A stretch of 64,000 bases of DNA, taken from NCBI RefSeq assembly GCF_003815975.1, contig NZ_CP033932.1, positions 4,073,501-4,137,500 of the forward strand. The letters run 5' to 3'. How positions within the stretch are numbered: the stretch's first letter is position 1; each line of letters starts with the position of its first letter. The DNA is from Chryseobacterium bernardetii (GTDB lineage: Bacteria > Bacteroidota > Bacteroidia > Flavobacteriales > Weeksellaceae). The notes beneath the pieces were generated by a model. The model saw only the letters and a program-made list of their open reading frames with translations, was not told where the DNA came from and made no database searches. The position numbers and the translations under genes were made by a program. Below, one piece after another: positions 51,379 to 55,799 of the stretch.

Positions 51379-51415
51379 AACAATTTCGGCAACCCGTTGG
51401 GTTGCCGAAATTGTT
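51379..51415 (-). terminator. Perfect terminator overlapping the carboxypeptidase stop codon
   Basis: 17-bp perfect stem AACAATTTCGGCAACCC / GGGTTGCCGAAATTGTT with a 3-base loop. Its outer bases include part of the TAA of the minus-strand gene at 51414. Confidence 0.85.
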
Positions 51416-52523
51416 AATCTTCTATTGTAAAATCCACTACTGAGTCCAGCTTCGGATATTTATTAACAGAAATAAATTTCTTTCCTGTACAATCTACTTC
51501 CAGCCATCCTTTTCTTTTTTTCACATCCCCTGCTTCCATCACAAAAGGAATGAAAGAAATCTCATCTTTTCCATCCTCTTTCATTTCTCTATACTGAACA
51601 GCAATGTCCAAGATACATTCATGGTTTGTATTCAATCTTACATTTCTATAGATAATATCGTAATGGGTTTCCTTGTTTTCCGGAATCTGCAGATAAGTTT
51701 CCCATCCTGTAATATCTGAGTTCAATTCACTGATTGCTTTCAATGCATAATATAAAGCAATTGTATAATATTTTCTGGTTCCTTTTCTTGTGTAGTCATC
51801 TACAAAATGTCCACCTTCAAATAATATTGTAGGCATTCCTGCTTTTATAAAATTGTCACCGGTAGAAGTCGGATAAAATTCATCAGAATATCTACCAATC
51901 TGGTTAGGGATCATTTCTTTTAAATGAGTATAAACACTTCCGATTACAGCCATACATTTTTTCCTGTTTTCCGTAATGGTACGTTCTACATTTTCAGAAG
52001 GCGCCAGAAAAGAAAGAGTAGCCGGATGAATACCATCTGTAGTAAAAATGGTTCTCTGCTCATGAAGATTTAATGCATAATCATATTTCTTAGAAGCTGC
52101 TGCTTTTTTCAGAAACTTAATCTCTTTACTTGCTTCATTATGAAAATCACGGTTAAGGTCAATATCTGATGCATTCAGCCTTGTCCATCTTTCAGATCCG
52201 TCAGGGTTAAGCATAAAGATAAAGTCCAGTCTGATTTTACTGAATAAATCTTCCTTCATCCCGGGAGCTTTATCAAGACTTGTCAAAAGATCAAGCATGG
52301 CATGTGTGGCATTGGATTCATTTCCGTGCATTTGTGACCAGGCCAATACCTGGATGTTTCCGGTTCCGATGCTTAACTGGTAAATAGGCTTCTCTAAATA
52401 GGATGTACCGATCTCCTGAATATAATCGCTGAGATTCGTCTGTAGGTAAGAAAATAATTTTTCAGGGGAAATATAGCGATTTGAGAAATCGGGAGTTGGA
52501 GAATAGATATGTTCAAAATTCAT
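51414..52523 (-). CDS. M14-family zinc carboxypeptidase
   Basis: 369 residues from MNFEHIYSPTPDF. The open frame extends 17 residues upstream of it, but that part is not family-like. M14 signatures: the HGNE zinc motif in WSQMHGNESNATHAML, RWTRLNASDIDLNRDF, the second zinc His in ALNLHEQR and the catalytic Glu in ILFEGGHF. No signal peptide is visible, so it is probably cytoplasmic and hydrolyses small peptides or N-acyl amino acids. A TAACATTTGTAA site (52582-52593) lies about 60 bases upstream of the start. Confidence 0.88.
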   Translation of the reverse strand: MNFEHIYSPTPDFSNRYISPEKLFSYLQTNLSDYIQEIGTSYLEKPIYQLSIGTGNIQVLAWSQMHGNESNATHAMLDLLTSLDKAPGMKEDLFSKIRLDFIFMLNPDGSERWTRLNASDIDLNRDFHNEASKEIKFLKKAAASKKYDYALNLHEQRTIFTTDGIHPATLSFLAPSENVERTITENRKKCMAVIGSVYTHLKEMIPNQIGRYSDEFYPTSTGDNFIKAGMPTILFEGGHFVDDYTRKGTRKYYTIALYYALKAISELNSDITGWETYLQIPENKETHYDIIYRNVRLNTNHECILDIAVQYREMKEDGKDEISFIPFVMEAGDVKKRKGWLEVDCTGKKFISVNKYPKLDSVVDFTIED

Positions 52524-52581
52524 TGCTGGAAAATAATTTACTGGAATCAAATTTAGCCATTTTAAAGCATACAATAAGCAA

Positions 52582-52593
52582 TAACATTTGTAA
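52582..52593 (+). promoter_or_regulatory. Operator-like dyad near the carboxypeptidase start
   Basis: TAACATTTGTAA, identical to the copy at 53341-53352. It is about 60 bases upstream of the M14 start at 52523, which reads the other way. Confidence 0.6.
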
Positions 52594-53393
52594 ACAGCAT
52601 GAAAACAGGAAAATTTAAAGGAATTTTTGTAAACAGAACGTGGTTTACAAAAGTTAAATGATGCATTTTACTTCCCTTTAATGCATTAACATAAGTAACA
52701 TTGTTAAACAGGCACTATTGACAAAATGTCTGTTGATAAAATTGTGGATTGCGAATAATTTAATAGTTAATAATTAATATGTTTAATTTCAAACAGTTAT
52801 GAAATTTATCTAAATACTATTTTTAAGAATACTTGAAGTAGATAAATGATTATTTTAGGCCAAATGGGTATGTATTTTTTAAACAAATAAAATGTGGAGA
52901 ACATAGTAATAAACATCATTATACAAATGTAAAATACAAAAAATTAGTCCAACCCATCAAAAATTGCAATAAACTTAGCGCTTAAAAGGATACCGAAAGT
53001 TAGCTAGAACTAATTTTATTTATTTAGGAAAGTTTACTCTTAAAATCTATCTAAAAAACTAAAAATAAAGCACGTTTACAGAAGTAATTTACAGTTATAA
53101 ATTAGTGTTGATGTCTATTATATAGTATTATAAGCTATATTATGGCATTTTACTCGCGAATGGTATAAATATTATTGATTAACATTGTAAATAGAATAAA
53201 ATAGAGAATAAGTCATCTAAAATAGCCTTTAAAAGAGTTAAAATTTACATTATTAACCCATTTTTGAAGTTCATTTAACAGAAAAACATTCCTAAGACTA
53301 GATCTTATTCTTGATATAATATATTGGTCACAATAATAACTAACATTTGTAATTTAACCGTAAAATACTATAAAACAACTAATTGAAATTTAT

Positions 53394-53473
53394 TTACATT
53401 TGTATATTCATATTTTTTAAGTTTATTTACATTTGTATTTTGCTTTTGTAAATTATAAAGATTACATTTGTAA
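53394..53473 (+). promoter_or_regulatory. Three helically phased operators before the XRE gene
   Basis: TTACATTTGTA copies begin at 53394, 53427 and 53462 (the last as full TTACATTTGTAA). Spacings of 33 and 35 bases are about three helical turns, so the sites face the same side of DNA. The fourth, at 53341, is 53 bases farther (five turns). Confidence 0.7.
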
Positions 53474-53494
53474 CATAATTAAAGGCTTATTTTT

Positions 53495-54031
53495 ATGAGT
53501 TTAAATGAAAGAATTTCAAAAGTTATAGAGTACTCCCGACTTACCCCATCTGAATTTGCAGATGAGATTGATGTGCAGCGCTCCTCAATTTCGCATATTA
53601 CATCCGGAAGAAATAAACCATCATTAGAGTTTATCATAAAAATAAAATCCCGTTTCCCTGAGCTTCTTTGGGATTGGCTGGTTACGGGTGAAGGCGAAAT
53701 GCTGAAGCCGGAGTTACCGGAAACAAAAGTACAGGAAGAACAGCCTGAAGAAGATCAGGTTAGAACCACACCTCTACCCGACCTTTTTACTATGATAAAT
53801 GAAGATGATGAATTCGGGGCCGATGAAGCAGAACCTGAGCTTCCTGTGGCATCTCCTGGAGAATCGGTTATACCGGCCCAAGATAAGGCTTCAGAAAAAA
53901 TATCGGATTCTCAGCGATTAGGAAATTCACCTGAAGAAATTTTAAGCCAAGTTATTGGAAATCAAACCAATAAAATAAAACGTATTGTTCTGTTCTACGA
54001 AAACGGAAAATTTGAAAGTTTTGAACCGTAA
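53495..54031 (+). CDS. XRE/CI-like HTH transcription regulator
   Basis: 178 residues. Residues 3-65 form an XRE/phage-CI-type helix-turn-helix (RISKVIEYSRLTPSEFADEI and SSISHITSGRNKPSLEFI), ending in LLWDWLVTGEGEML, a signature of this Bacteroidota family. A long acidic, Pro/Glu-rich linker (70-150) connects to a conserved C-terminal strand NKIKRIVLFYENGKFESF. The dyad array upstream suggests it binds these sites and controls itself. A terminator-like hairpin follows at 54176-54196. Confidence 0.85.
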   Translation: MSLNERISKVIEYSRLTPSEFADEIDVQRSSISHITSGRNKPSLEFIIKIKSRFPELLWDWLVTGEGEMLKPELPETKVQEEQPEEDQVRTTPLPDLFTMINEDDEFGADEAEPELPVASPGESVIPAQDKASEKISDSQRLGNSPEEILSQVIGNQTNKIKRIVLFYENGKFESFEP

Positions 54032-54175
54032 ATCTTATCAGTTATATCAATAACAAAAAATTTACTCAGAAATATATTCAGAAGTAAAAACAAAAACTCT
54101 TATAAGTAATCTTAATTTGATACAAAGTTATTAGCAATGGCAAAGGTCAAATACTAAAAGTAAAATTATTAAAAA

Positions 54176-54196
54176 CCTGACCAAGAAAAGGTCAGG
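54176..54196 (+). terminator. Terminator-like hairpin of the XRE gene
   Basis: 7-bp stem CCTGACC / GGTCAGG with loop AAGAAAA, followed by CTAAAAAAT instead of a T run, so the assignment is moderate. Confidence 0.5.
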
Positions 54197-54581
54197 CTAA
54201 AAAATATTTGAAGAAGAAAACTAAAGCTATTTGCTTTATTTATTTTTTAAAATTTGACATTTCCTGAGATACATTTTAATCTCTTTTACTTATTGAATTA
54301 CTGTATCCGGGAATTTTGAAGAATCGGTCTTTGAAGGCTCTTTCAGACAAAAGAATCTGTCACATAATAATGGAGCCGTACCAGTTTTTTTCATGCATTA
54401 GTTTTTTAATCACTTTATCAAATATAAAAATTAAAAATCAAATCTGCAATAAAAATTAGATTATTTTAACGTATAATTAATATTAAACACCAATATGTTT
54501 TTATTTACTAATTCCAGAAATTCTAATCAACTTATAAAATATTTAATAAATAAGGTGTTTTATTAAAATAACTCAAATAAA

Positions 54582-54608
54582 AAGGCCTGCATATTCTGCG
54601 CAGGCCTT
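54582..54608 (-). terminator. Terminator of the proline dehydrogenase gene
   Basis: 9-bp stem AAGGCCTGC / GCAGGCCTT with a 9-base loop, 22 bases from the stop at 54630. Confidence 0.85.
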
Positions 54609-54629
54609 CCTTTGTTTTAGCAACAATTA

Positions 54630-55799
54630 TTATTGTTTTTTTCTTCTTTCCAGCTCTTTTTTGATCAGTCCAAGTTCTCTTCCGGTCTGGCCGGCAACAG
54701 AGGTGTTTTCCTGGGCTCTTCTTGTAAGATAGGGCACAACATCCTTTACAGGCCCATATGGAAGATATTTAGCCACGTTATAGCCTTTATCAGACAAGTA
54801 GAAGGTGATATTATCACTCATTCCGTAAAGTTGTCCGAAATAAACGTGTGGGTTTCCGTTTTCTAAAGATTTGGACTTCATTTTATCCATAATCAGTTCG
54901 GAAGAAATCTCATTGTGTGTCCCAAAGAATGCAGACACTTTATCCAGGTGATTCATTACAAAGTCAATTCCCGCATTATAGTTCTTATCAGAAGCTTCTT
55001 TGGTAGGCTGAATCGGGTCTGCATATCCTTTTTCTGCCGCTCTGGCTCTCTCCTTCTCCATATAAGCTCCACGAACGATCTTATACCCGATAAAATAATT
55101 CTTTTCTCTTGCTCTCTGAAGGTGTGCTTCCATATATTCCAGCCTTCCTGTTCTGTACATCTGGATTGTGTTCCAAACAATAGGTTTCTCCTGGTTATAT
55201 TTCTCCATCATTTCTTCACAAAGCTGGTCTGCAGAATCCTGCATCCAGGTTTCCTCTGCATCTACCATCACTTTTTTATCATTTTCATGACAAAGTGCAC
55301 ATACTTCATCAAATCTTCTTACCACTCTTTCCCATTCTTCTTTTTGGCTGGTAGTAAGCTCTGCTCCTTTTCCAACGGCTTCATAAAGATCAATTCTTCC
55401 GAATGCGGTAGGTTTAAATACAATAAAAGGAATCGCCGGGTTTCCTACTGAAAATCTTACGATATCTTTGATTTCCTTGCATACTGCATCAAAAGTTTCT
55501 TCATCTTCTTTCCCCTCAATGGAATAATCGAAAATACTTCCAACTCCTCTCCTGAAAAGCTGTTTTACTACCTTCATACTTTCCTCGCGGGTTTCTCCGC
55601 CACAGAACTGCTCAAACAAAGTGTTTTTTACAATTCCGGTAACAAACGGAAAGTTGTTGTGTACTGTAAAATTCAGAACGGATGTTCCAAGGCTGGTAAG
55701 AGCGGGCTGTTCAATCATTTTAAACATCCAGTAAGCCTTTCTCAACTGTGCATCTGTCTTGTCTGCAAATGCAACTTTAGTATCATTAAAAATGGGCAT
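54630..55799 (-). CDS. Proline dehydrogenase
   Basis: 389 residues, a monofunctional PRODH of the PutA N-terminal domain type. Typical segments are VMVDAEETWMQDSADQL, NTIQMYRTGRLEYM, YKIVRGAYMEKERARA (FAD and substrate contacts), FFGTHNEISSEL and a C-terminal PYGPVKDVVPYLTRRAQEN. It oxidises proline to pyrroline-5-carboxylate and passes electrons to the quinone pool; the following dehydrogenase is not in the window. It is a single gene. Confidence 0.92.
   Translation of the reverse strand: MPIFNDTKVAFADKTDAQLRKAYWMFKMIEQPALTSLGTSVLNFTVHNNFPFVTGIVKNTLFEQFCGGETREESMKVVKQLFRRGVGSIFDYSIEGKEDEETFDAVCKEIKDIVRFSVGNPAIPFIVFKPTAFGRIDLYEAVGKGAELTTSQKEEWERVVRRFDEVCALCHENDKKVMVDAEETWMQDSADQLCEEMMEKYNQEKPIVWNTIQMYRTGRLEYMEAHLQRAREKNYFIGYKIVRGAYMEKERARAAEKGYADPIQPTKEASDKNYNAGIDFVMNHLDKVSAFFGTHNEISSELIMDKMKSKSLENGNPHVYFGQLYGMSDNITFYLSDKGYNVAKYLPYGPVKDVVPYLTRRAQENTSVAGQTGRELGLIKKELERRKKQ

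Follow-up and report, generated by a model that had tools for sequence, protein, structure and literature searches.

The window, that is the whole stretch of 64,000 nucleotides analysed here, contains two divergent genes separated by 920 bp of gene-free DNA: a gene of the M14 carboxypeptidase family and the gene of a regulator of the XRE type. When relatives are aligned, the gene-free DNA shows two conserved parts, at about 52640-52935 and at 53390-53494, separated by about 450 bp of drifting sequence. A dyad of the form TTACA-NN-TGTAA recurs in it, and we treat its copies as candidate operators. The features are the following (operators and promoters are predicted, and a strand is given only where the feature has one):

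51414-52523, minus strand: M14 zinc carboxypeptidase-family gene (Pfam PF00246), divergent from the XRE gene, ATG at 52523
52548-52555, minus strand: M14 promoter -7 box TAAATTTG, which fits TAnnTTTG (PMC9723704), with a predicted transcription start at about 52543
52582-52593: M14 promoter operator TAACATTTGTAA, its centre about 32 bp before the -7 box and at about -44 from the predicted start
52640-52935: conserved non-coding block, delimited by conservation and cross-genus comparison
52687-52698: older M14-side operator TAACATAAGTAA (score 8.0), TTAACATTTGTAA in many relatives, its centre 234 bp from that of the site at 52921
52727-52751: TGTCTGTTGATAAAATTGTGGATTG, the motif with the best conservation inside the block, conserved in other genera too
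52921-52932: distal (terC-side) operator ATACAAATGTAA, with ACA..TGT in 79 of the 79 loci read at full length (of 81) and a centre that is mostly AA (80-86%)
53341-53352: XRE operator at -152, TAACATTTGTAA, poorly conserved and kept in near relatives only
53394-53405: XRE operator at -99, half-sites 99-100% conserved and the two central bases A or T about equally (81 loci)
53427-53438: XRE operator at -66, from conservation and weight matrix
53440-53451: weaker operator TTGCTTTTGTAA (about -47), whose left half holds the -33 TTG (53440-53442) and whose right half GTAA is 99-100% conserved (81 loci)
53462-53473, plus strand: proximal operator TTACATTTGTAA (-31), which holds the -7 box TACATTTG (53463-53470) and has the same 12 bases in 81 of 81 loci; the predicted transcription start is at about 53475
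53495-54031, plus strand: XRE/HTH_3 regulator of 178 aa (Pfam PF01381)

The exact core ACATTTGTA occurs six times when the whole window is searched, and all six copies fall within 889 bp (52584-53472), five on the plus strand and one on the minus strand at 52922. The shuffled expectation is 0.81, and none of 100 shuffles reached six. In the whole genome (5,318,634 bases) we counted 82 copies, six of them in the array, against 110 for the reversed control pattern: this means that the cluster is local. The first-pass annotation, which had reported six exact cores between the M14 and XRE genes, is thus borne out, and the motif is indeed commoner here than elsewhere. Two TTACNNNNGTA dyads lying 8-38 bases apart were found 9 times genome-wide against 5 for the control; only two of these pairs have an ATTT centre in both dyads, and both are in this array. 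The same search revealed no second array in the genome. With a symmetric weight matrix, seven sites score at least 10 in the 920 bp where about 0.03 are expected from 1.2 Mb of the same genome, a comparison which is partly circular, as the matrix was built from these loci; the counts of exact cores are independent of its training.

From -152 towards the XRE start, neighbouring sites are spaced by 53, 33, 13 and 22 bases. The last three exact cores had been described as lying 33 and 35 bases apart, and so they do, but between the second and the third there is a weaker conserved dyad (53440-53451), whose score in the window itself is below 6. The TTTTGTAAAC/GTTTACAAAA pair which had been noticed nearer the M14 gene is present (52625-52652), but relatives conserve only its right arm.

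From 146 related loci we took the best 80, of which 79 bear the title Chryseobacterium and one Weeksellaceae, and compared them with the window, which makes 81 loci. Before the XRE start, sites occupy the same positions (-31, about -47, -66 and -99, joined by -152 among near relatives): dyads lie over the regulator's own promoter and are conserved in its relatives. The -31 dyad overlaps TTG-N20-TACATTTG, the textbook form of a Bacteroidetes promoter. TTG precedes TACATTTG by 20 nt in 65 loci and by 19 nt in 14 (79 of 81 in all), and it sits inside the weaker dyad TTGC-N4-GTAA. The Bacteroidetes -7 box is given as TAnnTTTG in PMC9723704, and PMC2483708 places a TTTG motif at -33. At -99, TTAC and TGTA are 99-100% conserved and the centre is free, TTTG changing to AAAT or AATT; unlike it, the centre at -31 is the same in 81 of 81 loci, because the dyad there contains the -7 box TACATTTG, which matches TAnnTTTG. 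Half-sites kept around a free centre at -99, together with a centre fixed over the promoter at -31, would mean that the motif is an operator whose proximal copy is also a -7 box. Judged from the alignment, the predicted promoter and operator share bases at -31 and the copy which has no promoter duty has a free centre, which makes this a clean example of one set of bases serving as operator and -7 box.

It could be objected that the repeated TACATTTG is simply a row of sigma-A -7 boxes, that is, several promoters without any dedicated operator. The element fits the -7 consensus (PMC9723704), the -31 copy is promoter-like, and among 13 loci elsewhere in the genome which carry a single strong dyad, there are five where it ends 2-27 bp ahead of an ATG, at the distance expected of a -7 box. 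However, both half-sites at -99 are kept even when TTTG flips to AAAT or AATT, the sites at 52582 and 53341 do not have the T of TA, and the dyad of the M14 promoter is an element separate from, and about 32 bp upstream of, another -7 box. We consider a mere row of promoters quite improbable.

The dyad, read as an operator, also belongs to the predicted M14 promoter, which carries it at one fixed place; this was absent from the first-pass annotation, as were the double duty of the proximal site as a sigma-A -7 box, the operators on either side of a block of constant length and the linkage of the locus to dif. In each of the 80 related loci compared, an M14 match adjoins XRE; two of these matches are partial. 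A TAnnTTTG box lies 15-40 bp before the M14 start in all 80 loci with a full start (one of the 81 being partial), and the M14-side dyad is centred 28-35 bp upstream of this box in 78 of 80 loci, at about 32 bp in 75 of them. Of 18 loci from other Weeksellaceae, 17 have the M14 -7 box and 15 have the dyad. In the clade of the window, the conserved block and the M14 gene are separated by about 105 additional bp: there, the dyad at 52582 holds the usual place relative to the M14 promoter and the older dyad is still present at 52687.

Of 148 Weeksellaceae genomes, 134 have a match to the XRE protein, and these represent 32 of 33 genera; a second match, weak in most cases, was counted in 11 of the 134. 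In 20 loci taken from other Weeksellaceae genera, M14 adjoins XRE in 19, and at least two dyads lie within 300 bp before XRE in 19 (L244 has one site there); none of 3000 AT-rich control slices had two. Adjacent spacings in these loci cluster at 12-13, 20-24, 33-35 and 52-54 bp. For the 41 spacings of up to 60 bp, the best period is 10.5 bp with R 0.88, and none of 2000 null draws was as high, although this figure, like the other null-draw figure below, is optimistic because the species are related. Across Flavobacteriales, an alignment search of 196 genomes gave an XRE relative in 121, which belong to 53 of 72 genera; outside Weeksellaceae it is mostly the N-terminal domain that matches. Of 37 loci taken from there, 33 have M14 upstream in divergent orientation, and 30 have a dyad with a score of 11 or more no further than 70 bp from the XRE start, the seven others having none at that distance. 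TTAC-N4-GTAA would be a concrete regulator-operator code holding through a bacterial order.

The block at 52640-52935 reads as an old divergent control region of M14 and terC, kept though the window has no terC; a TerC-like gene lies between M14 and XRE in 15 of the 20 other-genus Weeksellaceae loci (tested with Pfam in two of the 15). The distance between the operators on either side of the block is 233-236 bp in 16 of the 17 Weeksellaceae loci measured (234 in the window, 224 in L235), a set in which both operators score at least 7, several block operators only 7-8, and which includes the window and leaves out L238, L242, L243, L244 and other related Chryseobacterium loci. Outside Weeksellaceae, the modal distances of eight genera are 233, 213, 222, 212, 223, 149, 222 and 192 bp. 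Their phase coherence is R 0.946, which none of 5000 null draws equalled, under a distance rule set after the data had been seen and usable in 22 of 37 loci (of the 15 others, eight have no site on one side, three have M14 further off and four have no M14). L325, with 219 bp, does not share the phase of its own genus. Since the distance changes between genera by about whole helical turns, looping is suggested.

We rejected a structured RNA in 52575-52935: the minus-strand fold, the only strand folded, has z = 0.09. In Rfam, 52400-54700 gave five matches up to E 1, none at its family's gathering score. We also rejected an oriC with a DnaA cluster at 52727-52760, which is ruled out by the GC skew: the switch from negative to positive lies at about 1.06-1.35 Mb and the locus at 4.13 Mb; moreover, TTGTGGATT becomes TTGTTAATT in several other genera. 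The motif TGTCTGTTGATAAAATTGTGGATTG (52727-52751) resembles DnaA boxes in some species and not in others. The block interior also has two TTAAACA copies and the palindrome ACTTGAAGT (52704-52710, 52831-52839 and 52879-52885), conserved across genera.

The XRE protein has a DNA-binding domain of the HTH_3 type (PF01381, 27.9 bits for a cut-off of 23) and has one match in its own genome; its closest named relatives, in C. jejuense and C. contaminans, are 93% identical. The whole-protein model is weak (pLDDT 69, pTM 0.37), so that we used the N-terminal match alone: Foldseek gives this domain a probability of 1.00 to the 434 Cro, P22 c2 and SinR domains, with no E-value under 0.001. Block means are 80-88 pLDDT over residues 1-65, residues 75-91 are under 50, and a C-terminal hairpin (164-176) is confident. 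The helix-turn-helix residues F21, A22, V27, R29, S30, S33, H34, G38, R39 and N40 are invariant in 30 sequences, and so are G171 and F173 of the hairpin, which may serve dimer-dimer contacts. An acidic linker and a conserved C-terminus had been pointed out earlier; the linker turns out to be variable and modelled with low confidence, but the short C-terminal hairpin is conserved, as is the N-terminal helix-turn-helix.

The motif is linked to this protein by neighbourhood and co-conservation, which point to XRE as its probable reader. An XRE dimer, with its 434 Cro/SinR-like N-terminal domain, would read TTAC-N4-GTAA. Two operators of the XRE promoter, lying over its -7 and -33 elements, would block RNA polymerase and lead to autorepression; at -66, -99 and -152, where the spacings upstream are helically phased, cooperative binding can be expected. 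XRE would also co-regulate M14, up or down, by binding the operator centred about 44 bp before the transcription start predicted for M14, and in other genera it would bind the operator upstream of terC. Considering the sequence evidence together, we find it likely that XRE dimers bind cooperatively, repress their own gene and co-regulate M14 through a phased complex. That dimers on the two block-flanking operators are bridged through a DNA loop has, in our opinion, slightly less than an even chance; the fixed, helically phased distance between these operators makes looping directly testable. Cooperative autoregulation by XRE had already been put forward in the first-pass annotation: sites which follow the gene through the order, free-centre dyads at -99, the helical phase and the covering of -33 and -7 speak for it, but the binding is something we infer.

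A factor other than XRE might bind the dyads, XRE being merely one of its targets, and the match of motif to XRE by neighbourhood only would allow this. But in 19 of 20 loci from other genera the array stands ahead of the XRE gene, the genome has no second array, and the helix-turn-helix residues are invariant where the sites are: another factor seems unlikely to us. With XRE as the presumed binder, a wide regulon was rejected on counts of ACATTTGTA (82 against 110 for the reversed control), TTTACNNNNGTAAA (24 against 18) and WTACAWWTGTAW (20 against 14, four of the 20 in the array); a genome-wide motif search had been proposed earlier as a way to find a regulon, and it showed no enrichment of the dyad elsewhere.

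The locus is also linked to the replication terminus. We predicted dif sites by pattern only, combining the E. coli dif with one copy seen in the data; where a genome had several matches, that with the fewest mismatches was taken, which in three genomes meant two mismatches. The dif sites of Bacteroidetes and Flavobacterium are treated in PMC3025954 and PMC9719478. A dif-like site was found in 39 of the 40 genomes searched (27 of 27 complete Weeksellaceae genomes, 12 of 13 others). In these 39, XRE lies 2.5-287 kb from the predicted dif, that is 0.06-10.6% of the genome with a median of 2.4%, some of the genome sizes used being rounded to 0.1 Mb; it lies within 0.5% in eight. The distance is 83 kb (1.6%) in the window's own genome, and 2.5-4.3 kb in three genomes of one genus, where dif is 67-226 bp past the end of M14. 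As a control, dnaA in the 27 Weeksellaceae genomes is at a median of 14.6% from dif, farther than XRE in 23 and closer in four. A second control, the proline dehydrogenase gene which adjoins XRE in the own genome, is in other genera at a median of 13.9% against 3.8% for XRE, which is the closer in 18 of 21.

Both controls are also nearer dif than the 25% expected at random, so that the linkage is partly a general conservation of distance to the terminus. Orientation relative to dif was dropped as a diagnostic, as it is as constant for proline dehydrogenase (26 of 26) as for XRE (38 of 39); symmetric inversions therefore explain part of the linkage. Locating the terminus by skew alone was given up, the skew pointing to the same conclusion in G008, G039 and G062 but being too noisy in G053, and so was dnaA as an origin marker, not being at the GC-skew switch; in the own genome dnaA (G000:C1:3118662-3120011) lies away from the GC-skew origin. 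Near the predicted dif of this genome (L169, G000:C1:4044080-4045696) there are two more TTATGTTAAAT copies within 1.6 kb, as if integration had taken place at dif. Elsewhere, L137 (G000:C1:261550-262479) carries TTATCCACA eight times in exact form, always on one strand and at distances of 106-232 bp.

The nearness to dif, closer than that of proline dehydrogenase, would fit XRE and its operators being an autoregulated terminus complex, either a fork barrier or an organiser of the dif region, compatible with the autoregulation proposed above. Tus itself autoregulates through TerB in its own promoter (PMC8707476). But the dyad is symmetric and not scattered around the terminus, the GC skew fades over about 200 kb near dif (3.86-4.06 Mb) without any sharp switch at the array, and the controls just given, as well as the pattern-based prediction of dif, speak against it. 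A complex of this kind appears unlikely. There is likewise only a slim chance that a dif-linked XRE would, throughout Flavobacteriales, build a complex of fixed geometry on the M14/terC/XRE region, mark or organise the terminus and tie its own expression and that of M14 to it, as a terminus factor with a new fold. That XRE is constantly near dif raises the question of its role, if any, in the terminus biology of Flavobacteriales. In the literature searched, which has most subscription journals outside it, we found no description of such a dif-linked regulator system, going by titles and the opening lines of abstracts.

Finally, the locus can be compared with known systems. The RTP terminator gene reportedly has its own sites in its own promoter and is linked to the terminus (Ahn 1993, cited in PMC10331603). 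XRE likewise is a terminus-linked gene with its own candidate sites in its promoter, as in Tus-TerB (PMC8707476), gene and sites being no more than 10.6% of the genome away from dif in all 39 genomes where a dif was predicted. Unlike those of both systems, its sites are symmetric and confined to one locus: instead of opposed polar sites flanking the terminus, the strong dyads of the own genome cluster at one locus. Nor are they dispersed through the terminus region as matS sites of MatP are: of 20 strong dyads, four are here and 16 are spread over the chromosome. LacI, GalR and lambda CI are DNA-looping repressors. As with them, operators appear at both ends of a stretch whose length seems to vary in steps of about a whole helical turn, judged from 22 of 37 loci of the order, among which L325 is out of phase; unlike them, the DNA between the operators is itself conserved, and the loop is one that we infer. 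Regulators of the phage-repressor type have several operators, as for 434 and at lambda OR, and SinR-type XRE autoregulators are alike. The XRE locus differs from phage repressors in being conserved through an order beside a peptidase gene, outside phage, and from both types in its operator block of fixed length and in the variable linker and short C-terminal hairpin of its protein, which has no known oligomerisation domain. It resembles both in the modelled 434 Cro/P22 c2/SinR-like DNA-binding domain of XRE and in the several dyads over the regulator's own promoter, within a divergent control region.
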